Below, one piece after another: positions 2,469 through 22,290 of a DNA stretch of 22,290 nucleotides. A program made the position numbers and the translations under genes. The notes beneath the pieces were generated by a model that was not told where the DNA came from, did no database searches, and was given only the letters and a program-made list of their open reading frames with translations. Each line of letters opens with the position of its first letter. Position 1 is the stretch's first letter. Origin of the DNA: a virus; IMG/VR virus record IMGVR_UViG_3300037427_004464, positions 1 through 22,290 of that record; one strand, written 5' to 3'.

Positions 2469-5400
2469 CTAAAACCTCTTTATTTCACCGACTAATTGTT
2501 GCAACAGTATTGTACCTTTTAGACCATGCCTGTCATTTGGCCCAACATACATATCAGATGTATTATATCTCATCTTTGGTCTTTCAAGCATGTGAGGCTC
2601 AATAACAAAATTAACTCCTAAGAATTTTGTTCTTCTCGGAATCATCATTTCTACTAAGTTTGCGACTGTTGAGTCAAACCACTTAAAAAATTCAAAGAAG
2701 GTCTTAAAGTTAATTTTATCTGTAAGTCTGTTAAAATATACATCTCTTAGCGCCGCTAAGTCTGGATAGTCATCAGAGAACTGTAGTTCTGGACTCCCTA
2801 TGTAGTTATCAAATGCGTCGAGTGAGGAGAATATGTTTATAATATCTTCATTTAAGGCTTGAACAGCGCTGACTTCGACACTAAATCTTGTGTCGTCTAT
2901 TGGTACTTCGTCTTCTGGTATTGAATGAAGCGGTGCTGGCAAGCCTCCATATTTCTTAAGGTTCTTTTTATCTTTAAAGCTTCTCACTCTAATTCTATTT
3001 GTTGCATTTGCTTGATCAAAAAGTGTTGACAAAGAAGACAGAGTAATTGTGGTTGGCTTAATAACTTGCTTCGAGGCCTCAAAGCCTGAGCCTGTACAAT
3101 GCAAACCATTTTGCGACATGTCATGCAGTGTTATTTTGCCAGCGCTGTCTGATCCTGTAATAGTTTGGATGTAGTCTAAGTCTAGTCTTAGTTTTTCCCA
3201 TGATCCAGAGATTGTTGTTACAAAGTTAAAGTTCTTCTTCGGATCCTCGACTCCTAAAGATGTCGGGTTTAGTATATGTTCTTTTGATTCTTTTGGAGTG
3301 AGAGCTTTTGACCAGAACCTTGTGTTTAATACACGACCACCGAAGAACGTTGTTAAGTCAATATTTGAAACGTCAGCAGAAGAATAGGAAAGACCATAAA
3401 GATTATTGCCTGTTGGAACTGATTGTGAACCTATTAAGAATACAGAGCCAGAGACATTATTGTTATTTGTCTTTGTTGATAAAACACTGTTGTCATTGCC
3501 GGCGGGTGTAGTATCATCAAATAATTTTGTTGTCTCATAATACTCAGCTAAGCGGCCGCCAACTTGCCTTCCGGCGCGCAAGAACCAAGATGAAGATGCA
3601 ATTGATGCAGACATGTCATTTCTAATTCTGCCAAATGCAATATGCCACTCGCCGCCGTCGTAGATGTTGACGCCTGTCAAAGGCATTGCAAACTTTGGTG
3701 CCAGTGTTTTTGACCAAGTATCTCTAAATACCAGTGTCAACGAACCTGTAGTGCTTGTATCATTTGACCCAGAAAATGCTATCAGATTCAAGAACGTACT
3801 GTCAGATAGCGTTGAGGTTGTTGAACCCGAAGTCGAAAATCTTACCAATGAACCGGTCATTGGATGAAAATAGCCAAGAGCAGAGAAGGGTGACATTTGA
3901 TATGTTCCTTCATAAGTCCAAGAACCAGACGTAAGAATTCTATTATGAGCAGCTGTTGGACCTGGCAGAGGTATGCCTGGCTCTTTTCTCCCAGAGGAGT
4001 ATGATGCTGTTGGATAATACGGGCCTAAAAGATTTGATGACTTTAAAAATGGACGATTTGAAGGAATACCTTGAGCGTCTAAAGAGCTACTTATATTTCC
4101 GAAAGATCCAGAAAAATCTAGCATTCTTATGATTTTTGTTCTTGTAGTTCTTCTATCACTTAAGCGACCTGTGCGAGATCCCCCAAACTCCCTAAATCTA
4201 AAGTTATTATCTGGGTTAATACCCATGTTTCTCATAAGCGCCTTGATACTATGAATTGTTCCTTTTGTTCTAAGAATTTCATTCATATCAGACAATATTC
4301 TTCGCCATATCTGATTCTGAATATACTGTAAATTATTCTTTGAAAGAACAGTATCTACTTTGTGACCTTTTCTAGTGTAAAATTGATCTAATGATGTATT
4401 GGGAAAAAGTTCGGGCATTTGAAGTCCGTAAGTTTCCGCCAAGAATGGTATAAATGTGTCTGCGATTGTGCCTTCTGGGACAGGATCGACACTCATTAAG
4501 TTGCCAAAACTGTCTAGATGCATTTTAAGCTCGTCAAAAAACTTAGCCCATACAAATAAGAATGAACCAATGATTTGCGCAGAGCCCAGTTTTCCGCCGC
4601 CTGGGAAGTCTTGACTTACACCGTACCCGTCGGCGGCGTCGCCCAACTCTTTGGTTCCAAACCCTTCGAATATACTCGCTTCTTGAAGATAATGCTTAGG
4701 GATTAACTTTGTAATTAAGTTCGGATTGTTCGCATCATAGTCTGATGCTGATGTTAGCAAGTCTGTATTTAGTGATATTACATCTGGGTACGATGGAAAA
4801 AGTACTGGGCACTCTTCTGTCAGCTCTAAAGGAAGTGGGTGTGTTAGCCCACGAGGCTCTCTAAAGTATGTTTGGAAACCTACTACCTTAGAATGCAAAG
4901 AGTTTCCAGAATAGTCTATTGTTACATCGCTTGATGTATACGATCCCGTAGGTTCATTAAACTTAAAGTATAGTTTTAGTTTTTTGTCCGGATAAACTGA
5001 TTGTTTTCCATGGGCTCTCTGAACACCACCAGTTCTCGGCTTGTGGTATACTTTCAATTCATCAATTGCGCCTGATAGCGTTTGGTCAAATTGTAGTCCG
5101 TCTGCTGTGGGCCCAAAGATGCCCATTGCGTGATTTGATCCGCTCCCAATAAATAAAGAAGAATGTGAGTAGCCAAATGCACCCATTTCGTTTCTAGAAG
5201 ACGATGTTACAAGCTTAAAGTTTCTATAAAGCTTTATCTTGTTTTCGCCCGGGTTTGTATCATATACTGCGCAGATGTGCTGGAAGTCTCCCTTGGATAT
5301 ATCCATGGATGCACTCAAATAAGATGATCCAGATGATACCAGCATTATTAGAGATCCTGAGGCAGCTGCTGCTGTCGTTCCGCTCAGAGCAAGCGTAATA

Positions 5401-6017
5401 CCAGATGACGATCCGCTAAGACGCTGAAATACTACTTGATTGTTAAATTGTGTACTAGCAGGTATATGAAAATGAAAGTCAAATGCAATTGGCTTAGTCC
5501 CCTGGTCTAAAACTGACATTCCATCTGTGGCTCTGGAAAGGGTTGGGGAATAATTACCGGGCTGGTCTTTTACTTCAATATAAGTTCCAGTATCTGTGCC
5601 TCCGTTAGCTTCGGCCGCCCCTGAAAAGTGCAAAAATCCTCTAAATTTTGGAAATTTGTCATAGACCCATTTTTCAAAACCAGTTAGTCGATCAAAAAAC
5701 TCTAAATACTCAGACCGGGATCCGTCGAAAGGAAAACTATTAATGATTACATCAAATGCCGTATTTACTTTTGCTTCTGCTGAATTAAAAAACGTATGAT
5801 TTTCAAACTTATTCCAGTCTATGGAAATTTGCTGAGTTGACTTTATAGGTGAACCGGGTGGGTCGTATCTAAATGATTGTGTCACAGACTGTATTGAGCC
5901 TGTGTGCTGATCTGCAGAAACTTCAAGTACAGGAACAGAGCCTTCTGTCAAGCCTCTAATTACAGTCGGGGTAAATAAACCGGGACCCCCATAAAAAAAG
6001 TTTCCTTTTCTACCCAT
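2469..6017 (-). CDS. Baseplate wedge protein, gpI/gp7-like core flanked by two LamG domains (1182 aa)
   Basis: The ATG overlaps the upstream stop by one base (TAATG), so the two genes are translationally coupled. Residues about 165-330 form a LamG-like domain (GDFQHICAVYD; closing GAIDELKVYHKP). Residues about 515-605 carry a motif typical of P2 gpI and T4 gp7-like wedge proteins: a late-tail-protein segment PFLAETYGLQMPELFP, then IWRRILSDMNEILRTKGT with the Lys-Gly-Thr turn before a helix ending in NMGI. A second LamG-like domain spans about 690-915 (GEWHIAFGRIR; FGGRVLNTRFWSKALTPKE). The C-terminal 180 residues are predicted globular, with FFKWFDSTVANLVEMMIP near 1110-1127. Length is near T4 gp7 (about 1030 aa) and far above P2 gpI (about 180 aa). 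I infer a wedge protein that also displays lectin-like domains. Domain assignments are by eye. Confidence 0.8.
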   Translation of the reverse strand: MGRKGNFFYGGPGLFTPTVIRGLTEGSVPVLEVSADQHTGSIQSVTQSFRYDPPGSPIKSTQQISIDWNKFENHTFFNSAEAKVNTAFDVIINSFPFDGSRSEYLEFFDRLTGFEKWVYDKFPKFRGFLHFSGAAEANGGTDTGTYIEVKDQPGNYSPTLSRATDGMSVLDQGTKPIAFDFHFHIPASTQFNNQVVFQRLSGSSSGITLALSGTTAAAASGSLIMLVSSGSSYLSASMDISKGDFQHICAVYDTNPGENKIKLYRNFKLVTSSSRNEMGAFGYSHSSLFIGSGSNHAMGIFGPTADGLQFDQTLSGAIDELKVYHKPRTGGVQRAHGKQSVYPDKKLKLYFKFNEPTGSYTSSDVTIDYSGNSLHSKVVGFQTYFREPRGLTHPLPLELTEECPVLFPSYPDVISLNTDLLTSASDYDANNPNLITKLIPKHYLQEASIFEGFGTKELGDAADGYGVSQDFPGGGKLGSAQIIGSFLFVWAKFFDELKMHLDSFGNLMSVDPVPEGTIADTFIPFLAETYGLQMPELFPNTSLDQFYTRKGHKVDTVLSKNNLQYIQNQIWRRILSDMNEILRTKGTIHSIKALMRNMGINPDNNFRFREFGGSRTGRLSDRRTTRTKIIRMLDFSGSFGNISSSLDAQGIPSNRPFLKSSNLLGPYYPTASYSSGRKEPGIPLPGPTAAHNRILTSGSWTYEGTYQMSPFSALGYFHPMTGSLVRFSTSGSTTSTLSDSTFLNLIAFSGSNDTSTTGSLTLVFRDTWSKTLAPKFAMPLTGVNIYDGGEWHIAFGRIRNDMSASIASSSWFLRAGRQVGGRLAEYYETTKLFDDTTPAGNDNSVLSTKTNNNNVSGSVFLIGSQSVPTGNNLYGLSYSSADVSNIDLTTFFGGRVLNTRFWSKALTPKESKEHILNPTSLGVEDPKKNFNFVTTISGSWEKLRLDLDYIQTITGSDSAGKITLHDMSQNGLHCTGSGFEASKQVIKPTTITLSSLSTLFDQANATNRIRVRSFKDKKNLKKYGGLPAPLHSIPEDEVPIDDTRFSVEVSAVQALNEDIINIFSSLDAFDNYIGSPELQFSDDYPDLAALRDVYFNRLTDKINFKTFFEFFKWFDSTVANLVEMMIPRRTKFLGVNFVIEPHMLERPKMRYNTSDMYVGPNDRHGLKGTILLQQLVGEIKRF

Positions 6018-9984: not shown

Positions 9985-10461
9985 TCATTTAAGTTTTCCC
10001 CATAATTTACCTGAAATGGGGTTTGGTGCTGCATGATGGATAGCAATTATAGGTATGATTGTGGCGCCAGCAGCGACCGGTCGAATTGGAGGTATACCTA
10101 TAGTTTCACATACTACTCCAGGAGCTGCAATTGATTGCACTTGTGTGATATCAACCCACGCATTCATAAAATAATCATGGATTGCAGTTCCTAAAGCCTC
10201 ACCTAATGCCTCTACAATAGGATCGGCAGCGGCGGAGCTTTGGTCCCCAGCGCCATTAGAGGTGCTGTGGGCTGTGTCTTTCGCTATTTTAAGCGCAGCT
10301 TTTATAGCTTCCTTCAAAGGACCTTCAGCTACTTTAAGACTGGCACCGGATGGACCTGCAGGATCTGGTGTTGTAAATGCACTTATGACTGAGTCTGCAG
10401 CTGATCCTGCTGCATTAGCCACATCCATTACGAGACTGCCCTCGTCGCTTTCATCCGACAT
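9985..10461 (-). CDS. Small virion protein A, paralogue of the next gene; possible spike-tip (PAAR-like) protein
   Basis: A 158-residue protein with a strong AGGAGG ribosome site 5 nt before the ATG. The first 50 residues are acidic then Ala/Ser-rich and absent from the paralogue at 10492-10815. Residues about 50-100 match that paralogue closely: 16 identical residues (60-75, AKDTAHSTSNGAGDQS), then ADPI-E-LG-A-G-AIH-Y-M. The last 45 residues are a Gly/Pro/Ile-rich beta segment (APGVVCETIGIPPIRPVAAG). Position between spike and gp25 is where contractile-tail phages often carry a PAAR tip protein, and the small Gly-rich C-terminus fits this loosely. However, no canonical Pro-Ala-Ala-Arg motif or zinc-binding Cys/His set is present, so the function is inferred from context only. 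Confidence 0.7.
   Translation of the reverse strand: MSDESDEGSLVMDVANAAGSAADSVISAFTTPDPAGPSGASLKVAEGPLKEAIKAALKIAKDTAHSTSNGAGDQSSAAADPIVEALGEALGTAIHDYFMNAWVDITQVQSIAAPGVVCETIGIPPIRPVAAGATIIPIIAIHHAAPNPISGKLWGKLK
10237..10284 (-). repeat. Near-identical 48-bp block, copy 1 (in small virion protein A)
   Basis: This block encodes residues 60-75 of protein A. It matches 10708-10755 at 44 of 48 positions. All four differences lie in third codon positions and are silent, so both copies encode the same 16 residues. It lies at the centre of a paralogous pair whose flanks are much more diverged. Confidence 0.9.
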
Positions 10462-10491: not shown

Positions 10492-10815
10492 TCACTGCAA
10501 TTTTCCGAAGCCGGCATGAACAGTAATAATTGGCATCACTGTAGAACCTATATGAACTACAGGTGAGCCGGCTGTTAAAACCATCACTCCGGGGGCTTGA
10601 GTTGAAACAACAGGACCGATATTAACATCAGCTTTCATCGCATATTTGTGTATTGCGGCCCCTATAGCATTTCCTAATGTTTCTATAATAGGATCAGCCG
10701 CTTCGGCACTTTGGTCACCAGCCCCATTAGAGGTGCTGTGAGCTGTGTCTTTCGCTGCTTTGTATGCTGCTTTAATGTCTGCTTTAAGATCGATAACAGC
10801 TAATGCTAGTGGCAT
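10492..10815 (-). CDS. Small virion protein B, paralogue of protein A; possible spike-tip (PAAR-like) protein
   Basis: A 107-residue protein 9 nt after the spike gene, with AGGAG 6 nt before the ATG. It is the short form of the 158-residue neighbour: an N-terminal helix, the shared AKDTAHSTSNGAGDQS block (residues 21-36), an ADPI-E-LG-A-G-AIH-Y-M helix, then a C-terminal beta-rich segment APGVMVLTAGSPVVHIGST ending in GFGKLQ, where the paralogue ends GKLWGKLK. The common plan (helix plus Gly-rich beta tail) suggests that both occupy similar sites, perhaps trimer-binding at the spike or hub. Position directly downstream of the spike is the main argument. There is no canonical PAAR motif. Confidence is high that this is a real gene and low for the function. 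Confidence 0.7.
   Translation of the reverse strand: MPLALAVIDLKADIKAAYKAAKDTAHSTSNGAGDQSAEAADPIIETLGNAIGAAIHKYAMKADVNIGPVVSTQAPGVMVLTAGSPVVHIGSTVMPIITVHAGFGKLQ
10708..10755 (-). repeat. Near-identical 48-bp block, copy 2 (in small virion protein B)
   Basis: This is the partner of the block at 10237-10284, about 470 bp away in direct orientation, encoding residues 21-36 of protein B. It points to a tandem gene duplication with a section kept similar by recent conversion or strong constraint. Confidence 0.9.
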
Positions 10816-13954: not shown

Positions 13955-15121
13955 TTACATTAACTCACCTAAATGTAAATCATACAACTCTTTAATTGAC
14001 TCCCATGAATATTCATTTTTTAGTGTGGATGATAAATCACTTGCCCATCTTTGAGGCATGTGCGGCTTTTCATAAAACTTTCTAAACTTTCGTTTAGCGT
14101 CTTTTTCTTTTACATTTGCCCATCTAGAACCCTTAATAAAAACAGATCCGTCGACTCGGCTAGGGTGGATTTCTTCTAGATTATAGTCTACAACAATATA
14201 TCTTCCGCGGCCCATAAAGTCTGTGTGACCTGACCACCCTGTGGCTATGACTGGTACATTACTTGCAGCAGCTTCTAGAATCGGCAACCCAAAACCTTCA
14301 CCTCTAGTTAGTGTCACCAGAGCCTTTACAGAATCATTTCTATAAAGGCTTACCATATCATCATTTGTCATCTTTCCATGCAACAGATGTACTCTGGGGT
14401 ACTTTCCAGGCCTAACCGTTTTTAACAGGTCGTTCAAAAACTTTTGAGTCACCATTTTATCAATTTTTGTAGCCTTGCCTGAATTTGTCTTAAGAATGAT
14501 TCCTACATCTGGATCATCCTTGAATTCTTCGCATAGCCACTTAACAGTATAGAAGAGATTTTTTCTATCATTTTCAGGATTATTGCCTGTCAGCTGTCCG
14601 AAAACTAAAAAATTAAACTTAGTGGAAAATTCATGGTCAAGGGCAGGAATGCTTTCATCTAAAACCTCGTCATAAAAAGACTCAGGTATTACAATTATAG
14701 GCACCTTAATATTTCCGGTGTTTTCTAATGTCTTCTTAGTAAAAGTTGTAGGTACAACAATTGCTGACATTCTATTACATGCGTCTACCCATTGAGGGTT
14801 ACATCGATCTGTTTCTACACACGCTGTGACGCCAATGTTAATGTTAGCTAAATTTGGGTCCCACTCATTTGGAAGCTGTACCTGAATTGACATATCAAAT
14901 CTTGGGTGCCCTGCGCGCATGTCTACAGTCTTGTTCATAATCTTTCCAACTAGACCGTCTTCGCCGTCGCTATTAATAAACCACGGTGTTATTCCCCAGG
15001 GGGTGGCCTGAATCTTAACGTCCCATCCGTCCTTTTGCAAAGCCCATCTTGCAATCTGCCTTGAATGAACCCCGTAACCAGAGAGTGTTAAAAATGGACC
15101 TCTTAGTAAAACATTTTTCAT
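13955..15121 (-). CDS. Glycosyltransferase, GT-B fold (GT4-like), second of a pair
   Basis: A 388-residue protein starting 1 nt after the previous glycosyltransferase stop, with AGGA 8 nt before the ATG. The N-terminal domain begins LLRGPFLTLSGYGVHSRQIA, a Gly-rich acceptor-side loop after the first strand. The C-terminal domain has the GT4 signature EGFGLPILEAAASNVPVIAT (about 275-294), whose first Glu and E283 would bind the nucleotide sugar ribose and phosphates, followed by WSGHTDF. A ligand-loop motif N-x-x-x-D-R-K-N at about 180-188 precedes the second Rossmann domain. There is no membrane segment, so it is a soluble enzyme. The donor and acceptor cannot be read. With its neighbour it could build a disaccharide or modify successive acceptor sites. 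Context (next to sugar nucleotide genes on one side and virion genes on the other) allows host glycan or virion protein acceptors. Confidence 0.9.
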   Translation of the reverse strand: MKNVLLRGPFLTLSGYGVHSRQIARWALQKDGWDVKIQATPWGITPWFINSDGEDGLVGKIMNKTVDMRAGHPRFDMSIQVQLPNEWDPNLANINIGVTACVETDRCNPQWVDACNRMSAIVVPTTFTKKTLENTGNIKVPIIVIPESFYDEVLDESIPALDHEFSTKFNFLVFGQLTGNNPENDRKNLFYTVKWLCEEFKDDPDVGIILKTNSGKATKIDKMVTQKFLNDLLKTVRPGKYPRVHLLHGKMTNDDMVSLYRNDSVKALVTLTRGEGFGLPILEAAASNVPVIATGWSGHTDFMGRGRYIVVDYNLEEIHPSRVDGSVFIKGSRWANVKEKDAKRKFRKFYEKPHMPQRWASDLSSTLKNEYSWESIKELYDLHLGELM

Positions 15122-15122
15122 T

Positions 15123-16379
15123 TTAAAATTCCTTTATTGACCATGGTTTGTATCTTTTTTCCCAGTTTTCAATTAGCTCTAAAAGAGACTCATCCCATTG
15201 ATCAACTGTGTCTTTTAATGCAAACTCAGACTGGACATAGCTCCTGGCTTTATTCCCCAAGGCTTCTCTTTCTTCTTTTGGCATTTCATACAGCTTCATT
15301 AGAGCGTCAGCAGTTTGTTGTGCTGAGCAATAGTCTTCATAGATATAAGGTACCTGTTGCGATCCTACTAGTGTTTGATGAGTCACATCTAATGCCACAC
15401 CATTTTCTGAATCGTCTCTATGGTCAACAACCTGCCTTGTAAGACCACCTGTCTTAAGCGCAATAATTGGCTTTCCGCATTGCATTGCTTCTAATGTTGC
15501 TAATCCGAAACCCTCTGCGTAAGAAATATTGATACAAACATCAGAAATATTATGAAGAATGTTCATCTTTTCAAAGTCTATTCTTTCTGGAGAAAAGACA
15601 ACAGAGTCAGAAATTCCTAGCATCTCTGAGGTGGCATATAGATTAGGTCCTTCAGAGTCGTCTGGTTGGGTATGCATTAAAAGTGTTATATCTTTTTTGC
15701 CATACTTTTCTTCGACCATTTTTGCAAATAAGCTCCAGCCCCAAAGTAGATCATTTGGGCGTTTTCTTTTAGCATTTCTATTTACCCAGAAAGTTACAAA
15801 GTGATCTTTTCTATCTTCACCTAAAAGTTGAAGCCTTGCATTCTTGACTAAGCTTTTATCTTCTATTGGGTGATATATTTCTTCCGGGAGGGCATGAGGA
15901 ATAAAATTGGTTCTTCCGGGGGCTAGATCTTTTACATAGCTATACGTCATATGGGAGTGACAATTAATGAGGTCAGTTGAATCGTAAAGAACTCTATTGA
16001 ACTCAGGTACCGGTAGATTATCCCACACATGCCAATAAGCAATTGGACATATTTGGTGAATTTCGTCTTCCATTTCCCAAAGCCATATGAAGAATCTTGG
16101 GTCTGTAAAGATAAATAGTATGTCAGGTTTTTCTGTTGCTAGCGTCTGGCGAAGCATGTCTGGACTTCCAAAACCGTCAACTGGCTTAATGACAAAATCT
16201 TCACTAACTTGAACTACATCATAATTTTCATGCTTAATTGCAGCTCCGAACTGTCTAACAGACCAATGACCCTTTGCAATCAGGCCGTCTATTAAAAACC
16301 TACTTTGAACCGCGACTCCGGAAGTGCTCAAAGCATGGTCGGACAACATTAGAATTTTGTACTTCTTTTTTTTACTCAT
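15123..16379 (-). CDS. Glycosyltransferase, GT-B fold (GT4-like), first of a pair
   Basis: A 418-residue protein with a Rossmann N-terminal start (KYKILMLSDHALSTSGVAVQ), a mid-protein WVNRNAKRKRPNDLLWGW segment (about 198-215) in the place where GT4 enzymes carry the R/K pair contacting the donor diphosphate, and the GT4 signature EGFGLATLEAMQCGKPIIAL (289-308) followed by KTGG. It has no membrane helix. It is preceded by a 52-nt gap with a candidate sigma70-like promoter and followed by the second glycosyltransferase after 1 nt. A purine-rich GAGAGAGA run lies just before the ATG and probably serves as the ribosome site. Sequence similarity to its neighbour is limited to the general GT4 plan, so the two probably add different sugars or act on different acceptors. 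Confidence 0.9.
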   Translation of the reverse strand: MSKKKKYKILMLSDHALSTSGVAVQSRFLIDGLIAKGHWSVRQFGAAIKHENYDVVQVSEDFVIKPVDGFGSPDMLRQTLATEKPDILFIFTDPRFFIWLWEMEDEIHQICPIAYWHVWDNLPVPEFNRVLYDSTDLINCHSHMTYSYVKDLAPGRTNFIPHALPEEIYHPIEDKSLVKNARLQLLGEDRKDHFVTFWVNRNAKRKRPNDLLWGWSLFAKMVEEKYGKKDITLLMHTQPDDSEGPNLYATSEMLGISDSVVFSPERIDFEKMNILHNISDVCINISYAEGFGLATLEAMQCGKPIIALKTGGLTRQVVDHRDDSENGVALDVTHQTLVGSQQVPYIYEDYCSAQQTADALMKLYEMPKEEREALGNKARSYVQSEFALKDTVDQWDESLLELIENWEKRYKPWSIKEF

Positions 16380-16399
16380 ATCTCTCTCTTATAAAAATA

Positions 16400-16427
16400 A
16401 TCATATCAATATTATGAAAACCGTAAA
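16400..16427 (-). promoter_or_regulatory. Candidate sigma70-like promoter for the glycosyltransferase pair
   Basis: On the minus strand, TTTACG (-35, 4 of 6 consensus) and TATGAT (-10, 5 of 6) are separated by 16 bp in the gap after the nuclease gene. The predicted start gives a short leader with a GAGAGAGA site before the ATG. This gap is AT-rich, so a chance match is possible. Confidence 0.45.
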
Positions 16428-16431
16428 TGAA

Positions 16432-17271
16432 TCATGTACAGTGCTCTGTGTCCTTATAGGGGCAGTATGTACAGGAATTTCTATTCTTTAGGTTGAATTG
16501 TTTCTTTACCATTTTGATCATGCTTCGCATAATTTTTAATGCTCTTTCCATTGACTTCGGGCCGGCTGAAACAGTAACCAACTCACACATATTTCCTGGC
16601 TTTCCACCTCTTTTCAAAAGAATAAAGCCACAATTAATATCTTTTAGCGGAATATTGTGCTTTCTAGACCAGAAGTGCTTATAAAGAATTAGCTGAGCTG
16701 TCATTAAAATATCTTGTTTCTTGCTTCTTCGCCACCCATAAGACTGTGATGTTTTCCAGTCTAAGATCCAATATTTTGTTCCAGTGCCTCTAGTTTTAGG
16801 TACTTTAATGACAGCATCGATAAATCCTTTAAACTTTACGTCAGAATTTTCGATCTCTTCGTATAGCTCTTCCTCAGCCTTTACTGTCTCCCAACCGGGA
16901 AATGTTTCGTCTAAAAAGGTTGGAACATCATCCCACATATTTGATGCCCACTCACACCACTCTTCAACAGGTGCGTGTTTGTACCAACCAGGCATTTTTT
17001 CATACCACTCAGGCTCACCAAAGCCATGCTTGTCCCACGCATCTGTAACGTCTTTTAAGATTTTTTCTCGATCAACAGTTCTTGTTTCTAGAAGTGATTC
17101 ACACCCTTCGTGAACAGCTGTCCCAAAATCTAAAAAAGGTGAAGGTTCAAATACGTCAATTTTATCAACATGCATAAGCTTGTGCCTATAAGAGCACTCT
17201 TTCCAGCACTTGATTTCAGAAAATGATACGTGTGATTTGCCAGTAGGCATTGTTGGTTTTGTATTAATCAT
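16432..17271 (-). CDS. Cas4/AddB-like PD-(D/E)XK nuclease with predicted Fe-S cluster
   Basis: A 279-residue protein of the RecB-like PD-(D/E)XK nuclease family. Visible motifs in order: SFSEIKCWKECSYRHKLM (Cys26), GTAVHE with His54, an E-rich strand AEEELYEE near 132-139, GFIDAV with catalytic Asp152, and WILDWKTS with Asp171 and Lys173. Four cysteines (C26, then C267, C270 and C278 in CTYCPYKDTEHC) have the N-terminal plus C-terminal spacing seen for the 4Fe-4S cluster of Cas4 and AddB. It is a stand-alone nuclease with no helicase or CRISPR gene beside it. Likely a phage exonuclease in recombination, replication or DNA processing. The gene sits oddly among sugar genes and has its own promoter. 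The start at 17271 lies at the predicted transcription start, so translation would be leaderless; the next ATG is at codon 8. Confidence 0.85.
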   Translation of the reverse strand: MINTKPTMPTGKSHVSFSEIKCWKECSYRHKLMHVDKIDVFEPSPFLDFGTAVHEGCESLLETRTVDREKILKDVTDAWDKHGFGEPEWYEKMPGWYKHAPVEEWCEWASNMWDDVPTFLDETFPGWETVKAEEELYEEIENSDVKFKGFIDAVIKVPKTRGTGTKYWILDWKTSQSYGWRRSKKQDILMTAQLILYKHFWSRKHNIPLKDINCGFILLKRGGKPGNMCELVTVSAGPKSMERALKIMRSMIKMVKKQFNLKNRNSCTYCPYKDTEHCT

Positions 17272-17277
17272 AAAGAT

Positions 17278-17306
17278 ATTATACCCGGTCCGTAAAGAAT
17301 ATTCAA
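17278..17306 (-). promoter_or_regulatory. Sigma70-like promoter; predicts leaderless nuclease mRNA
   Basis: In the 48-nt gap before the nuclease, TTGAAT (-35) and a perfect TATAAT (-10) are spaced exactly 17 bp apart. Six bases separate the -10 from the ATG, so +1 would be the A of the start codon itself. No Shine-Dalgarno sequence is seen. Confidence 0.7.
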
Positions 17307-17319
17307 TTCTACAGGCTCA

Positions 17320-18183
17320 TTATTGTGTTTTTAAAAAATCAGCCACATATTGTCTCAAAGACGACTCAGGTTTCCAGCCAGTAGAATCTTTTGTCTGTTT
17401 GATATCAGCTAGAGTTTCTTTGGCTTCACCGGGGCGAGAAGGTATGTATTCTATGTTTTCAGGGCTGAACATGTTTGCCAGCTCATTAATAGAGTAGTTT
17501 TTTCCAGTCCCTAGATTAAAAACATTACCAGCATAATTCCCCTCAGATAACGCGCAGAGTCCAGAAACGATATCAGATACATGAGTAAAGTCTCTTCTCT
17601 GCTCTCCAGTTCCCGTAATTGTTATTGATTCTCCACGAATTGTCTGGCCTTCAAATACACCTACAACAGTTGCGTATGGTCCAGAAATTGGTTGTCGAGG
17701 GCCGTAGACATTAAAAAATCTTGCAATTACTGTGCTTACATCGTATACCTTGCTGTACATTTCGCATAGCTGTTCACCTGTATATTTTGCAAATGCATAC
17801 GGATTTAACATAGGGCCGCCATACGCGGACGACGATCCTGCATAAACTAATTTTGCGCCGGCGCGACGGGTGTACTCTAGTACTTCTGAAGTGCCCATGG
17901 CGTCGATGGAAAAATATTTTGTCGGGTCTTTGAAACTCGGCTGTATTCTTGCCAGAGCTGCCAAATGAAAAACAGTATCAAAACTTGAACCTTCTACGTA
18001 CTTTGCTGAATTGATGTTTCTTATGTCGTCAATCCAGTACGTGACTCCGTCGATCATATTGTCTCTAGAGCTGCTCTCAGAAATTAAGTTATCAATTACT
18101 GTAACATCATTGCCATTTTTAAAAAGCAGCTCTACTAAATGTGAACCTACAAATCCAAGGCCACCTGTTACTAAAATATTCAC
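17320..18183 (-). CDS. Extended SDR NAD-dependent sugar epimerase/dehydratase
   Basis: A 287-residue GalE-like extended short-chain dehydrogenase. It starts with GTG (AGGA 6 nt upstream), 1 nt after the dehydrogenase stop. The NAD site is LVTGGLGFVGSHL (residues 4-16), with VIDNL ending strand 2; the active-site Ser lies in GSSSAYG (116-122), and the catalytic Tyr129 and Lys133 in YAFAK. ARFFNVYGPRQ follows at about 154-164 and RDFTHVSDIV near 197. Usually 18-25 residues lie between the SSS-x-YG strand and the Tyr; here only about 8 do, so a substrate-facing loop is missing. The product is likely a 4-epimerised or dehydrated nucleotide sugar. With the UDP-sugar dehydrogenase gene just upstream, a UDP-hexuronate step (for example UDP-GlcA to UDP-GalA) is the simplest guess. 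Substrate is not shown by sequence. Confidence 0.9.
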   Translation of the reverse strand: MNILVTGGLGFVGSHLVELLFKNGNDVTVIDNLISESSSRDNMIDGVTYWIDDIRNINSAKYVEGSSFDTVFHLAALARIQPSFKDPTKYFSIDAMGTSEVLEYTRRAGAKLVYAGSSSAYGGPMLNPYAFAKYTGEQLCEMYSKVYDVSTVIARFFNVYGPRQPISGPYATVVGVFEGQTIRGESITITGTGEQRRDFTHVSDIVSGLCALSEGNYAGNVFNLGTGKNYSINELANMFSPENIEYIPSRPGEAKETLADIKQTKDSTGWKPESSLRQYVADFLKTQ

Positions 18184-18184
18184 T

Positions 18185-19039
18185 TTAATCCTCGCTAACT
18201 GCCCGGCCTTTCATAGCCTCCCAGTCTCTATTTTTTCTTACCATATCATTTTTTTCTTGAACAGACTTTAATATTGTTGAGTCTACACTAGAGTTTTCAG
18301 CAATATAAACCATAGCGCTCAAGTCTTTTGGAAAGCAGTGGCCGCCAAAACCAAGATCTCCGTCTGGACCGGGAACAGCAAAATGACTTCGACCTAGTCT
18401 AGTATCATGCAAAGCATACTCAGTTACCTTGTCGTAATCAATTGAATTTGCCTGGCATATTTGATATATTTCGTTTGAAAACGATACCTTTGTTGCTAAA
18501 AAACAATTAGTAAAATACTTTACCATTTCTGCTGTTCCGGAGCCGGTCTTAACAATTGGTATTTCAGGAAAAGCCTTTTTAAACATTGTCTTGACAATTG
18601 TCGTCGCAGGCCGGGTTCCCCCTAGAATAATTCTAGTTTGATTTTTAAAATCCTCATAAGAATTTGCCTCTGTTAAAAACTCAGGACTAAAAATTACATC
18701 AATATTGTTGAATTTATTATCTAGTAACTTTGTAGTTCCTGGTGGGACTGTTGATTTTATTACAACAATTCTTCTTTTTTCATTTGAAAAACTATTTAAA
18801 CATATCTTGTCAATATTATGAAGAGAATTCTCAACAATTCTAATGTCACACTCACCTGATTTTTTCATTGGTGTCGGCAAACATTGAAATATAATCTCAG
18901 AAGTCTCAATTAGACTATATAAAGAGTCACAATTACTTTTGCTTTTATCTAGATCGTATGTCTTTATATCATAAAATGTTTTAAGGCCTTCGTAGATAGC
19001 AGACCCTACAAAACCCTGTCCTACAATTCCAATTTTCAT
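18185..19039 (-). CDS. UDP-glucose/GDP-mannose dehydrogenase family, C-terminally short
   Basis: A 284-residue protein. It has the Rossmann motif GIVGQGFVGSAI (4-15), the TVPPGTT segment (97-103), a SPEFLTEANS loop (118-127) typical of UDP-glucose dehydrogenases, AEMVKYFTNCF with Lys174 and Asn178, and catalytic Cys235 in FGGHCFPKD. All catalytic parts of the NAD-binding and central domains are present. The usual length is 390-450 residues, and the whole UDP-binding C-terminal domain is missing; the frame ends cleanly 1 nt before the SDR start, so there is no sign of a frameshift. Likely converts a UDP-sugar to a UDP-uronate, or a variant substrate. The ATG follows the carbamoyltransferase TAA directly. 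Whether the short form is active alone, or needs a partner to close the site, is open. Confidence 0.85.
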   Translation of the reverse strand: MKIGIVGQGFVGSAIYEGLKTFYDIKTYDLDKSKSNCDSLYSLIETSEIIFQCLPTPMKKSGECDIRIVENSLHNIDKICLNSFSNEKRRIVVIKSTVPPGTTKLLDNKFNNIDVIFSPEFLTEANSYEDFKNQTRIILGGTRPATTIVKTMFKKAFPEIPIVKTGSGTAEMVKYFTNCFLATKVSFSNEIYQICQANSIDYDKVTEYALHDTRLGRSHFAVPGPDGDLGFGGHCFPKDLSAMVYIAENSSVDSTILKSVQEKNDMVRKNRDWEAMKGRAVSED

Positions 19040-20674
19040 TTACTTTTTCTCTCCGCTTCTAGTTAATATAATGTTGTATTCTGGAAAGAAAAGGTGATCT
19101 ATTTGTGTTCCAAGAAAACACCTAATTGCATGCTCTGCATTTTCACAAATAGGCTCTCTATCATTAAAACTTGTATTTAGAATAATTGGGACACCTGAAG
19201 CTTTCTTCCATCTGGTTAAAAAGTCATAATACCACTCGTTGTCTTTCTTGCTAACAGTTTGCAGCCTTGCAGTACCATCTTTGTGAACTACAGCGGGTAC
19301 TAGATCTTTTTTATCTTCTTTAAATTTAAGAACATATTGCATGTACGGACTTTCTTGGGTTCTTTCAAACCATTCTGGTACATCTTCTAGCAATATTGAT
19401 GGGGCAAAAGGCCTGAACCAGACTCGATGTTTTACCTTTTCATTGATTGTATCTTTCATCTCAGCTCTTCGTGGGTCTACAAGAATAGATCTATTTCCCA
19501 AAGCACGACGTCCAGATTCTGAAGATCCGTTAAATACAGATACTATTTTTCCGTCTAAAAGTTTAGTAATTAAGTCATCAACAGAAGACTCTTCAACAGA
19601 TAGTTCAGAACTAAATGCCTCTATTGTTCTATCAATATGTTCCTTAGGCCACACTTCACCCAAATAAGGCGTAAAATTATCTTCCCACTTAACTCTAGGG
19701 TTGCCGAGTGTTTCGTGCCATAAAATTTGTGCGGCGCCAATTGCTAAACCTCCGTCATAAGGGACAGGAGGAATATATACACCTTCTAGTCTATCATCAA
19801 ACTTGTCTAGTACTTTACCCATACAGACAGAATTTAAAGTTACACCGCCTGATAGACATAAATGTTTGTAGTCGGGAAGCTGGTCTAGACACTGCTGCAC
19901 AATACTGAATATTACTTCTTCAGTGGCTTTTTGTAGCCCTGCAGCTAGATCAAATTTGTCTTGTTCAGACTTATCTGCAATTACAGACCAGGGATTTAGA
20001 TACGGATGTGTTGGATCTTTTCCTTCAACATATGCACCCTTAGGTTGTGTGGGTGGCTTAAACCCAGCCTGAATGATGTCTTTTGTTAGCATTTTGAGAA
20101 AGTCTTCGTAATACTTCATTGGGTCGCCAAAAGCAGCCATGGCCATTATTGTACCTTCTTGTCCTCCAAGAGGCCAGCCATTTTGAAGCTTGAATACATA
20201 CCTTGTGATTCTAGTCCAAACACCACCGATATTCAACTGTGAGGGGTGAAATGACTGGAGTCGCTCCATTGTGTTATCATTGCCAACCCATACCGTAGCG
20301 GCTGTTTCAATGCCTTCATCTGACTCAACACCACCGCCATCCAGTGTTATAACAATTGATTTGTCAAAATTACTAGAATAAAATGCATTTGCTGCATGCG
20401 CATGATGATGAGAATAATATGTAATTTCGCTGCCGGCCTGAGCTTCTAGCTTTCCATAAGACTCATATTCTTTAAGCTTTCTAGCTGGGTAAACAGAAGC
20501 AAAGTGCGTAATTTCTTTGGCACCTTCGTATCTATCATACATAAATTCAGCAGCATCACCTGGTGGTGACTTTTCTCTGTTGTATCTTTCATACTCAGCA
20601 TGTACCAGCGGCTTTCCGTCCTCTAGTACACAAAAAGAGCAGTCGTGGCCGGCCCATAGTCCTGCGATTTTCAT
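19040..20674 (-). CDS. O-carbamoyltransferase, NodU/TobZ/CmcH family
   Basis: A 544-residue protein, close to the family's usual 550-600 aa. The N-terminal half is a Kae1-like ATP-dependent domain: GLWAGHDCSFCVLEDG (5-20), a metal-binding H-x-x-x-H pair (His89, His93 in SHHHAHAANAF), TLDGGGVESDE (110-120), and LCLSGGVTLN near 272. The C-terminal carbamoyltransferase domain has GSSESGRRALGNRSILVDPR (about 375-395), FRPFAPSIL and LNTSFNDREPICENAEHAI. The family uses carbamoyl phosphate and ATP to form carbamoyl-adenylate and transfers the carbamoyl group to a sugar or other hydroxyl. The usual G-P-R-A-L-G reads G-R-R-A-L-G here. An extended -10 promoter and a GAGAGG site precede it. Known relatives decorate Nod factors, antibiotics and LPS heptose; the acceptor here is not shown. 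Confidence 0.9.
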   Translation of the reverse strand: MKIAGLWAGHDCSFCVLEDGKPLVHAEYERYNREKSPPGDAAEFMYDRYEGAKEITHFASVYPARKLKEYESYGKLEAQAGSEITYYSHHHAHAANAFYSSNFDKSIVITLDGGGVESDEGIETAATVWVGNDNTMERLQSFHPSQLNIGGVWTRITRYVFKLQNGWPLGGQEGTIMAMAAFGDPMKYYEDFLKMLTKDIIQAGFKPPTQPKGAYVEGKDPTHPYLNPWSVIADKSEQDKFDLAAGLQKATEEVIFSIVQQCLDQLPDYKHLCLSGGVTLNSVCMGKVLDKFDDRLEGVYIPPVPYDGGLAIGAAQILWHETLGNPRVKWEDNFTPYLGEVWPKEHIDRTIEAFSSELSVEESSVDDLITKLLDGKIVSVFNGSSESGRRALGNRSILVDPRRAEMKDTINEKVKHRVWFRPFAPSILLEDVPEWFERTQESPYMQYVLKFKEDKKDLVPAVVHKDGTARLQTVSKKDNEWYYDFLTRWKKASGVPIILNTSFNDREPICENAEHAIRCFLGTQIDHLFFPEYNIILTRSGEKK

Positions 20675-20699
20675 TTATTTTTTCCTCTCATTACTAACA

Positions 20700-20727
20700 A
20701 TTATATCAGCTATGATCCTGTTGTTAT
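20700..20727 (-). promoter_or_regulatory. Extended -10 sigma70-like promoter for the carbamoyltransferase unit
   Basis: In the 61-nt gap, ATAACA (-35, 4 of 6) lies 16 bp before a perfect TATAAT, which is preceded by TG at the extended -10 position (TGATATAAT). The leader of about 18 nt contains GAGAGGA before the ATG. Confidence 0.6.
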
Positions 20728-20735
20728 TCATCAAT

Positions 20736-21095
20736 TTAGTCGCCCTTTTCAATCCTATAGCTGTCTGAATCGAAATGTTGTGTTGAAAATTCAAACAATT
20801 CTGTGTCTTCCAAGGCTATCATTCTGTGCCTCAAACCTCTATAGACATGAAAGTTGTCGCCCGGGCCTAAAATTATTTCACTAGCATTGCTAATATCATC
20901 TACCTTAGAGTATTTTACTAATAGCCTACCAGATTGTACATAAAAAACTTCATCCTTTAGTTTGTGGTAGTGCCAAGAGCACATTTTTCCTTTAACAAAA
21001 TACAAAAGCTTTCCGCAGTATTCTTCACAATTAACAATCCACTTTTCGAAGCCCCAACCCTTTGGAACAAACTTAATCGGCAAAGAAGTCTTCAT
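20736..21095 (-). CDS. Cupin, mannose-6-phosphate isomerase/WbuC-like
   Basis: A 119-residue single-domain cupin. The pattern is that of the C-terminal cupin of AlgA/ManC-type enzymes: PKGWGFEKW (11-19), YCGKLLYFVKGKMCSWHYHK with metal ligands His42 and His44, DEVFYVQSG with Glu49, LGPGDNFHVYRG, LRHRMIALED with His90, and FEFSTQHFDSDSYRIEK. The full metal set (two His, Glu, His) is present, so it can be an active sugar isomerase or epimerase, or a sugar-nucleotide binding protein. The ATG has AGGAG 6 nt upstream and overlaps the HAD gene by 23 nt. No guanylyltransferase domain is attached. Its place in the nucleotidyltransferase-kinase-phosphatase cluster suggests a step in making an activated sugar. 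Confidence 0.85.
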   Translation of the reverse strand: MKTSLPIKFVPKGWGFEKWIVNCEEYCGKLLYFVKGKMCSWHYHKLKDEVFYVQSGRLLVKYSKVDDISNASEIILGPGDNFHVYRGLRHRMIALEDTELFEFSTQHFDSDSYRIEKGD

Positions 21096-21393
21096 CTTTT
21101 ACTCCTTTGTCATCAATATAGACATCAGCTGCTGGCTTTCCTAAAATTAAGTCGTGATACTTTACACCCCAACTATCCAGCTGATTTCTAGTAAACTCAT
21201 AAAATTGCTTATAAGACTTGTGAATATTTCCATCATGACGACCCATTCCTCGGGCGGTAAAGTAAACTAGCTCATTACCTTGATCGTATAGATTGTTGAG
21301 CTTATCGATTCTTTCCACAATAGGCTCTGCGGATTCGTAGTTGGTCCCAGATTGACTACAGATTGTTCCATCTATATCTACCATGTATTTCAT
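21073..21393 (-). CDS. Mini HAD-superfamily phosphatase
   Basis: A 106-residue HAD protein without a cap domain. Motif I is VDIDGT (nucleophile Asp6, acid/base Asp8), motif II YFTARG with Thr46, motif III LGKPAADVYIDDK (Lys86, Asp94, Asp95). All four HAD motifs are complete, so it should dephosphorylate a small phosphorylated compound. It is far shorter than GmhB (about 190 aa) and resembles the small capsule-synthesis-type phosphatases instead. The ATG overlaps the kinase stop by 4 nt (ATGA), and the 3' end overlaps the cupin by 23 nt. This tight coupling suggests that the HAD acts in the same sugar path as the kinase. The substrate is not shown. Confidence 0.85.
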   Translation of the reverse strand: MKYMVDIDGTICSQSGTNYESAEPIVERIDKLNNLYDQGNELVYFTARGMGRHDGNIHKSYKQFYEFTRNQLDSWGVKYHDLILGKPAADVYIDDKGVKDEDFFAD

Positions 21394-22160
21394 TCAAGAT
21401 CTCCCAGGGTTACGTTATAAACCCCTGTTTTTTGTACTGTTACTCTTGCACACTTATTTGCAAATCTAATTGCATCTCTAATATTTTTAAATTGACAATA
21501 GTGAACTGCCAAAGCAGATAAAAATGTGTCACCAGCGCCGCAAACATCAATTACTTCGCACGGATTTGTTGTTAAAATTTCCCCTCCATATTTTGCCCCT
21601 CTAGAGCCGATAGTCACAATTAACTTAGAGGAGTCTGGCAAGTTTTTTATTTCTTTGCTTTCAGACTCATTTATCTTTATAATGCAATTCTTGAAAGGAG
21701 AGAGGTCTTTTTTCTTTGTGTCAACAAAAACGGGCTGCGGTAGCTTTGGCACAATTCTTTCTAGAAACTCCTGTGTGAGAAAGCCCTTGTTGTAGTCTGA
21801 TATCACTGTTGCATCATAGTCATTGACAAGATGTAAGTCAAGATACGCACGTATCATTGGTTGACAGCTATCAAACTCATCGACTCGTAATATTTGCTGC
21901 TTTGTTTTTTTGTCAATAAATCTGGTCTTAGTCATAGTATTCGACGTTGTAACAAGATCAGTTTCTTGCCCTAGGGATATAATATTAGTTGAAACATTTG
22001 ATGCCATGCCCTCTTTAACAAGGGTGCCAGTCTCTTCAATGTTTAAAATTGGAACAGGCGCTTCTGGGCTTATTCTTTCGCATGCACCAAAGACATATCT
22101 GTCTAGACATGTCTCACCTATTACTAATATTTTGGAATGTTTTTGTTGTGGATAGTCCAT
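21390..22160 (-). CDS. PfkB-family sugar kinase, HldE/RfaE domain I-like
   Basis: A 256-residue PfkB kinase. N-terminal strand ILVIGETCLDRYVFG (11-25) holds the substrate Asp20; ISPEAPVPIL (30-39) is typical of HldE/RfaE kinases; GMASNVSTNIISLG (51-64) follows; SDYNKG (121-126) and the C-terminal GAGDTF with Gly208, Ala209, Gly210 and catalytic base Asp211 are all present. HldE domain I is about 310-320 aa, so this form is some 60 residues short, mainly between residues 64 and 120. The start lies 47 nt inside the upstream nucleotidyltransferase gene in another frame. It probably phosphorylates C1 of a heptose or hexose 7-(6-)phosphate. The HldE identity of the kinase is supported by the neighbouring HldE-type domain II gene. 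Confidence 0.85.
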   Translation of the reverse strand: MDYPQQKHSKILVIGETCLDRYVFGACERISPEAPVPILNIEETGTLVKEGMASNVSTNIISLGQETDLVTTSNTMTKTRFIDKKTKQQILRVDEFDSCQPMIRAYLDLHLVNDYDATVISDYNKGFLTQEFLERIVPKLPQPVFVDTKKKDLSPFKNCIIKINESESKEIKNLPDSSKLIVTIGSRGAKYGGEILTTNPCEVIDVCGAGDTFLSALAVHYCQFKNIRDAIRFANKCARVTVQKTGVYNVTLGDLE

Positions 22161-22290
22161 CTATTAACTCAAATATTTTTACTTCTGCAAGATTATTTCC
22201 GACGACGTCAGCTACTCTATAGTCTCCGCCCTTTACAATAATATCAGGCTTTATTGACTTGATCAAATTGATCGGTGTTTCCTCTTTGAA
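22114..22290 (-). CDS. Nucleotidyltransferase C-terminus, HldE/RfaE domain II-like (5' end outside window)
   Basis: A 58-codon open frame entering from the right edge and ending in TGA at 22114-22116. The protein reads TPINLIKSIKPDIIVKGGDY, a short segment starting VVG, then FELIDGLSTTKTFQNI. The KPD-x-x-VKGGDY and D-G-x-STT motifs are those of the sugar-1-phosphate adenylyl/cytidylyltransferase family, as in HldE domain II and RfaE-like enzymes. It overlaps the kinase start by 47 nt. In HldE the order is kinase then transferase in one polypeptide; here the transferase gene comes first and is separate. Only the C-terminal third is visible, so the HxGH catalytic motif is not seen. Confidence 0.85.
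   Translation of the reverse strand, partial: FKEETPINLIKSIKPDIIVKGGDYRVADVVGNNLAEVKIFELIDGLSTTKTFQNISNR

Follow-up and report, generated by a model that had tools for sequence, protein, structure and literature searches.

How might a phage that carries genes for the activation of a heptose obtain this sugar when it has no gene for GmhA, the isomerase with which the bacterial ADP-heptose pathway begins? The question is raised by the IMG/VR record IMGVR_UViG_3300037427_004464, a contig from an uncultured myovirus that was analyzed as the complete record of 22,290 bp (hereafter, the window). One end of the window bears a sugar cassette (Table 1) that includes genes for an RfaE-I-type kinase, an RfaE-II-type nucleotidyltransferase, a small phosphatase of the haloacid dehalogenase (HAD) type, and a cupin. 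Clusters of this kind are already known in phages; the new point is the cupin in the place of GmhA. We propose that the phage module constitutes a complete pathway to a nucleoside diphosphate (NDP)-heptose, in which the cupin is predicted to replace GmhA as a non-orthologous D-sedoheptulose-7-phosphate isomerase, a reading to which we assign a probability of roughly two in three. The proposal draws on the linkage of the cupin to the three other genes in viruses, the absence of GmhA there, gene fusions in archaea, the near mutual exclusion of the cupin and GmhA, and the gene content of Binataceae genomes.

The cupin and the first step of the heptose pathway

Starting from sedoheptulose-7-phosphate of the host, the cupin would generate D-glycero-D-manno-heptose-7-phosphate, which is the GmhA step catalyzed by an enzyme not homologous to GmhA. 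Next, the RfaE-I-type kinase would convert this product to the 1,7-bisphosphate, the small HAD protein is predicted to take off the 7-phosphate in place of GmhB, and the nucleotidyltransferase would yield the NDP-heptose, most likely with ADP as the nucleotide. The kinase and nucleotidyltransferase domains of HldE and a HAD phosphatase are common to the window and the bacterial GmhA-HldE-GmhB-HldD pathway, whereas in the window a cupin would substitute for GmhA, a smaller HAD protein for GmhB, and the two HldE domains are encoded by separate genes.

Conserved motifs and the nearest relatives of the proteins support the original prediction that a phage sugar cassette encodes a kinase and a nucleotidyltransferase, both of HldE type, together with a phosphatase. 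TIGR02198 is the best family for the kinase (150.6 bits, E = 5e-44), with a score that falls below the 345-bit cut-off because the phage protein is short and divergent; its best sequence match in the PDB is HldA (4e84, E = 6.8e-20), and the RfaE-I motifs RISPEAPVPV, SDYNKG, and GAGDT are retained. The nucleotidyltransferase gene is interrupted by the right end of the contig, beyond which the record offers no further sequence. The last 58 amino acids of the protein, which are the part present in the window, keep the pattern KGGDY..VVG..STT and are 65% identical to the nearest full-length relative (in L002), an RfaE-II protein whose TIGR02199 score of 170.6 bits lies under the cut-off of 181.5. 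All four HAD motifs of the phosphatase (DIDGT, TARG, GKP, and DDK) are conserved across 14 homologues, and the protein is small and EcbF-like rather than a GmhB of the HAD-IIIA type with a zinc loop.

No GmhA of the SIS fold is encoded in the window, as had been noted at the outset. This absence proved to be general in cupin-bearing viruses: no SIS_2/GmhA match over the cut-off was found in 50 cupin-bearing IMG/VR contigs, and GmhA homologues, which occur in 13 phage records, occur in none of the 35 phage records that bear the cupin. The original observation is thus improved by a reading in which the missing step is probably filled by the cupin itself. Cyanophage genes labelled 'phosphoheptose isomerase' were considered as GmhA candidates and rejected, as they encode the small HAD protein (DxDGT, TARG, GKP, DDK), with a BLASTP E value of 5.3 to Escherichia coli GmhA. 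The label is probably a misannotation in the cyanophage records (L003-L014) and in the PHROG families phrog_1238 and phrog_7851, and the cupin is probably misannotated where it is called 'cysteine dioxygenase', 'putative nucleotidyltransferase', or 'glucose-1-phosphate adenylyltransferase related'. A literature search for a cupin replacing GmhA returned nothing relevant.

Scanning with a cupin alignment yielded at least 571 related viral stretches and 47 cellular loci in about 85,000 genomes, counts that are not strictly comparable since the peptide patterns differed. Among the 80 best viral loci of the at least 571, picked by the cupin alone, a HAD gene lies within 3 kb of the cupin in 63, a nucleotidyltransferase gene in 59, and a kinase gene in 56. 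When identical cupins are removed, 42 of 64 distinct viral loci carry all three genes co-oriented within 4 kb of the cupin, mostly in the order nucleotidyltransferase-kinase-HAD-cupin, which is that of the window, or kinase-nucleotidyltransferase-HAD-cupin.

Searches by tblastn placed the kinase in 34 phage records and the cupin in 35; with few exceptions, these are T4-like phages of Synechococcus or Prochlorococcus or marine single-cell virus records. In P-SSM2, S-CAM3, S-SSM7, and Sf-FS3, genes for a carbamoyltransferase, the nucleotidyltransferase, the kinase, the HAD protein, and the cupin lie close together, with a gene for a short-chain dehydrogenase/reductase (SDR) adjacent, and most of the loci L003-L014 from cyanophages contain matches to all four of the families T4-GC 304, 305, 306, and 307. 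The window shares these five families and an SDR with the cyanophage 'LPS' (lipopolysaccharide) clusters (P-SSM2 PSSM2_308-313, S-CAM1/3, S-SSM7, Sf-FS3; T4-GC 303-308), but it belongs to another phage lineage, with a baseplate related to those of immuto and Mel-JY01, and has an extra short UDP-sugar dehydrogenase, a different SDR (about 24% identity), and a carbamoyltransferase of another clade (30-37% identity). Co-occurrence of T4-GC 304, 305, 307, and 308 in three phages has been reported, with their functionality left open (Sullivan et al., 2010, PMC3037559), and a later announcement names the cyanophage genes heptose-related LPS genes (PMC7378029). The former study raised 'stuffer DNA' as an explanation for such clusters, but the open frames, the invariant catalytic residues, and a gene order that persists in hundreds of contigs and in phages of very different kinds make it scarcely credible that the cassette genes are passengers without function. 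In S-SM2 and P-TIM68, transketolase-like and zinc alcohol dehydrogenase genes occur shortly before the heptose kinase (L006:4967-7189; L014:5768-7992), and these perhaps make another higher sugar.

The key to the predicted function of the cupin lies in gene fusions of woesearchaeal archaea. In the genome G006, an open reading frame (ORF) of 436 amino acids (L076:9083-10393) joins an RfaE-I kinase (TIGR02198, 342 of 345 bits) to a C-terminal cupin; its end overlaps a GmhB gene, and a gene for a GT9 heptosyltransferase lies two genes upstream. A single ORF in G007 encodes GmhB-cupin-RfaE-II and adjoins a kinase gene and a GT9 gene. RfaE-I-cupin fusions are present in 9 of 281 genomes of the woesearchaeal class, most of them adjoining GmhB and/or RfaE-II, and in two other genomes of the class RfaE-I is instead fused to GmhA, with GmhB and RfaE-II again as neighbors. 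Thus, the cupin occupies the exact place of GmhA. These operons (L076, L077, L177-L191) have the same cupin family (46-50% identity) and the same pathway as the window, although they are cellular and fused and include a true GmhB. With RfaE-I-GmhA fusions as well as the GmhB-cupin-RfaE-II triple fusion (L200, L213, L214, L176), the class displays several rearrangements of the archaeal heptose pathway.

In these genomes, the presence of the cupin nearly excludes that of GmhA. Of 32 genomes whose RfaE-I scores 280 bits or more, 12 have the cupin, and SIS_2 occurs in 1 of these 12 as against 14 of the 20 that lack the cupin (Fisher p = 0.00095), a value to be read with two limits, in that the threshold was picked after the table had been seen and that related metagenome-assembled genomes (MAGs) are not independent. 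In each of 12 Binataceae-type genomes, the cupin accompanies an HldE-type kinase that scores at least 300 bits, and eight of these genomes have no SIS_2 match except for GlmS-sized proteins, that is, no stand-alone GmhA.

GmhA turns a ketose phosphate into an aldose phosphate of manno configuration, a reaction of the same type as that of phosphomannose isomerase. The phage protein has a cupin fold with an HxH...E...H metal site and is similar to the type II phosphomannose and lyxose isomerase-like cupins. Its metal ligands (H42, H44, E49, and H90) are invariant in phages, bacteria, and archaea, and S104, T105, H107, D111, and R114 are likewise invariant from phage to archaea. Weak PDB matches of the cupin profile include L-ribose, D-lyxose, and mannose-6-phosphate isomerases, and the fused archaeal form (L076) passes the Pfam cut-offs of both mannose-6-phosphate isomerase and lyxose isomerase (PF01050, PF07385). 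An AlphaFold2 model of the cupin (predicted local distance difference test score of 92.6) matches CapF, D-lyxose isomerases, and the Thermococcus phosphomannose isomerase, with 7zvy, 7nzp, and 3mpb among the matches. The deep branches of a cupin tree are weak, and the argument does not draw on this tree.

The top fold matches are the cupin domains of CapF, which is consistent with an alternative in which the cupin acts later, as an RmlC- or CapF-like epimerase or isomerase of NDP-sugars, and not on sedoheptulose-7-phosphate. SDRs are also frequent neighbors of the cupin in viral loci, and in some cellular loci it lies beside SDRs with no RfaE genes near. We nevertheless consider this alternative unlikely, as the cupin stands in GmhA's place in woesearchaeal operons composed of RfaE-I-cupin, GmhB, and RfaE-II, resembles mannose-6-phosphate and lyxose isomerases, and is negatively associated with GmhA. 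Beyond the two limits on the exclusion test, several observations weigh against the proposed pathway with the cupin as its isomerase. One woesearchaeal genome (G350) has both the cupin and a GmhA-like SIS protein, and because the genomes are MAGs, a missing GmhA counts for less than it seems to. The cupin is also present in bacterial loci with no RfaE genes within 10 kb, which make up most of the 47 genomic loci, so the family may act on several substrates. The sugar isomerase fold matches sit among 881 cupin matches with E ≤ 0.001, the phage kinase is missing some 30 residues that HldE has between its GMASNV and TKTR motifs, and the link of the carbamoyltransferase to the module is not a regular one, with such a gene within 10 kb of the cupin in only 3 of the 80 best viral loci.

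The carbamoyltransferase and its substrate

Judged by its sequence, the carbamoyltransferase of the cassette clearly belongs to the NodU/TobZ family. Its matches to Carbam_trans_N and Carbam_trans_C (PF16861 and PF02543) are far above the cut-off, and its structure matches are TobZ, GdmN, the novobiocin carbamoyltransferase, and 7xb6. The enzyme would attach an O-carbamoyl group to one of the sugars in the final glycan, perhaps to the heptose. By analogy with WapO, which carbamoylates HepII in Pseudomonas (PMC8005017), the original prediction suggested that the cassette might make a carbamoylated heptose; in the form considered here, the cupin would isomerize some other sugar and the host would supply GmhA. 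Taken by itself, the analogy is sound, and WapO (PA5005), NodU, TobZ, and the window enzyme all belong to one superfamily (PF02543 and PF16861). In the window, the carbamoyltransferase gene abuts the nucleotidyltransferase-kinase-HAD-cupin block; its nearest relatives (L110 and L112, 61-65% identity), which form a well-supported clade with it, both have the heptose module, and a separate clade of cyanophage carbamoyltransferases is also linked to this module. A fixed link to heptose was not borne out, and as a rule it was rejected: in the syntenic relatives G002 and G003, the carbamoyltransferase is accompanied by NeuB and CMP-sugar genes, with no heptose kinase in the contig, and 77 of the 80 viral cupin loci have no carbamoyltransferase within 10 kb. 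A GmhA from the host, moreover, would be unnecessary if the cupin fills the isomerase step. A carbamoylated heptose is a possible product, but as the specific, WapO-like product of the cassette it appears doubtful, as does a dependence on a host isomerase.

Phage-borne carbamoyltransferases of the same superfamily and fold modify DNA, converting 5-hydroxymethylcytosine to 5-carbamoyloxymethylcytosine (PMC8670742), and the window enzyme might be imagined to act in this way, unrelated to sugars; a thymidylate-synthase-family gene does occur elsewhere in the relative G003. The gene context does not fit, and this role was rejected as very improbable. The copies that modify DNA adjoin thymidylate synthase homologues, whereas those that do not adjoin group 1 glycosyltransferases (Yang et al., 2021, PMC8670742), and the window has glycosyltransferases of PF00534, with no thymidylate synthase homologue anywhere in it, no dCMP hydroxymethylase homologue adjacent to the carbamoyltransferase, and neither in the 55 kb of G002. 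The TobZ residues G421 and R423 are kept in the window enzyme and W408 is not, a pattern for which the text of that study gives no reading in either direction (PMC8670742).

The cassette and the glycan island of its phage lineage

Domain and profile searches confirmed every gene named in the original prediction, whose list did not include a PD-(D/E)XK nuclease that lies inside the cassette region. All genes of the window are on the minus strand, and their order of transcription from the right end is nucleotidyltransferase, kinase, HAD protein, cupin, carbamoyltransferase, dehydrogenase, SDR, PD-(D/E)XK nuclease, glycosyltransferases A and B (GT_A and GT_B), o104, and o265, followed by baseplate and tail genes. 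Of the two proteins encoded between GT_B and the baseplate genes, o104 is a small protein of 104 amino acids and o265 a conserved protein of 265.

Table 1. Features of the sugar cassette, in order of transcription
Feature	Position	Strand	Remarks
Partial RfaE-II (HldE C-terminal domain) nucleotidyltransferase	22114..22290	-	58-aa C-terminus; 5' end beyond the contig
RfaE-I-type heptose-7-phosphate 1-kinase (predicted), short phage form, PfkB fold	21390..22160	-	256 aa; TIGR02198, PF00294, phrog_8133
Small C0-type HAD phosphatase, EcbF-like	21073..21393	-	106 aa; TIGR01689 EcbF/BcbF 49.7 bits (cut-off 162), phrog_1238
Cupin	20736..21095	-	119 aa; 58-88% identity to phage homologues
NodU/TobZ-type O-carbamoyltransferase	19040..20674	-	544 aa; PF16861 E = 2e-60, PF02543 E = 2e-22, phrog_1601 E = 1e-107
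Short nucleotide-sugar (UDP-sugar) 6-dehydrogenase	18185..19039	-	284 aa; TIGR03026 191.9 bits (cut-off 189.8), PF03721, PF00984, phrog_9148
Extended SDR nucleotide-sugar epimerase/dehydratase, GalE-like	17320..18183	-	PF01370 E = 9e-47, phrog_540; TIGR01179 galE 117 bits, below cut-off
PD-(D/E)XK (Cas4/RecB-like) nuclease	16432..17271	-	PF12705 E = 8e-22; conserved neighbor, not a sugar gene
GT4-type glycosyltransferase A (GT_A)	15123..16379	-	PF00534 E = 2e-15; 63-65% identity in L122, L155, L080
GT4-type glycosyltransferase B (GT_B)	13955..15121	-	PF00534 E = 1e-7, phrog_2170 E = 8e-27; 41-51% identity in L122, L155

A parallel UDP-uronate branch, which had also been suggested, is plausible, although the dehydrogenase is a short form of its family. 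Its N-terminal and central domains were matched and the catalytic motif FGGHCFPKD is present, while a domain search of the 284-aa protein gave no match for the C-terminal UDP-binding domain. A related phage encodes a dehydrogenase of 291 amino acids (L018:19537-20412), likewise with no detectable C-terminal UDP-binding domain; the catalytic motif (GHCFPKD/GSCFPKD) is kept in both short proteins, and short homologues are also found in L118 and L154.

The gp6-like baseplate protein of the window is 29-30% identical to its counterparts in the Flavobacterium phage immuto and the Microcystis phage Mel-JY01. A search of viral contigs for relatives by this protein found none, and relatives were obtained through the carbamoyltransferase and the cupin. 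Two contigs found via the cupin, L122 and L155 (the latter on a relative of 128 kb), have the same succession of genes as the window, from the sugar cassette through the PD-(D/E)XK nuclease, GT_A, GT_B, o104, o265, o122, gp5, and gp25 to gp6. The nuclease gene holds the same place, between the sugar genes and the glycosyltransferases, in these two contigs and in L080 and L017. Two more distant relatives found via the carbamoyltransferase (G002 and G003) retain the nuclease, GT_A, GT_B, the carbamoyltransferase (45-48% identity), and one SDR, that of G002 being 54% identical to the window SDR; o265 is retained in G002 as well. Their other sugar genes are of the nonulosonate type, with NeuB and a CMP-sugar synthetase in both, an aminotransferase in G002, and a UDP-GlcNAc 2-epimerase in G003, and no RfaE kinase was found in either contig. 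The gene-by-gene match of the close relatives, together with the different sugar genes of the distant ones, indicates that this lineage has a fixed site beside the baseplate genes for a fast-changing glycan island.

Several further observations concern this region. In related phages, nonulosonate-type genes (NeuB, CMP-sugar synthetase, and aminotransferase, at L017:17412-21014 and L018:7214-8577) occupy the place in the glycan island that the heptose module holds in the window, and the NeuB of L017 bears a C-terminal cupin. The island of G002 appears, from a reading of the sequence alone, to encode a GlmS-like protein (glucosamine-6-phosphate synthase; L024:6107-7936). Among the tail genes of the window, two adjacent proteins (9985-10461 and 10492-10815) share a repeated segment (KDTAHSTSNGAGDQS..ADPI.E.LG.A.G.AIH), apparently the outcome of a tandem duplication. 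A tail or baseplate protein of 1182 amino acids (2469-6017) has a concanavalin-like Laminin_G_3 domain and weak similarity to gp7, and is possibly glycan-binding.

The acceptor and the meaning of the module

GT_A and GT_B, which are kept at their position in the lineage, would use the NDP-heptose and/or a uronate-type sugar produced by the dehydrogenase and the SDR. Neither the window nor the related islands were found to encode a protein with at least four hydrophobic segments, as a flippase or polymerase would have. The lack of a multi-pass membrane protein, and an island that runs into the baseplate genes, fit the glycosylation of a virion protein or of another cytoplasmic acceptor, which is slightly favored. 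The hydrophobic-segment result does not separate virion from host, because heptosylation of the core type is cytoplasmic too, and a core-type modification of host LPS may be the alternative. Cyanobacterial LPS has been reported to be without heptose (PMC4390846), and the product of the cyanophage genes would accordingly not be a standard sugar of the LPS core.

If the cupin does fill the first step, phages may make a heptose sugar by themselves: the phage module would be complete from sedoheptulose-7-phosphate, and the present labels of the HAD protein and the cupin would be wrong. The cupin would then also account for the isomerase step in heptose operons of DPANN archaea and some bacteria, where this enzyme is missing. 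Heptose-related genes of cyanophages have been noted for well over ten years without a known function, with 'stuffer DNA' among the explanations considered (PMC3037559), and the proposal bears on why phages make a sugar reportedly absent from the LPS of cyanobacteria (PMC4390846). In the broadest reading, which we regard as evenly balanced, a family of cupins, disseminated chiefly by marine phages, represents a second, unrelated sedoheptulose-7-phosphate isomerase for what is the committed step of heptose biosynthesis, with which phages, Woesearchaeota, and some Binataceae would make NDP-heptose without GmhA, and phages would convert an intermediate of the host pentose-phosphate pathway or Calvin cycle into a carbamoylated, phage-specific glycan, even where the LPS of the host is without heptose.

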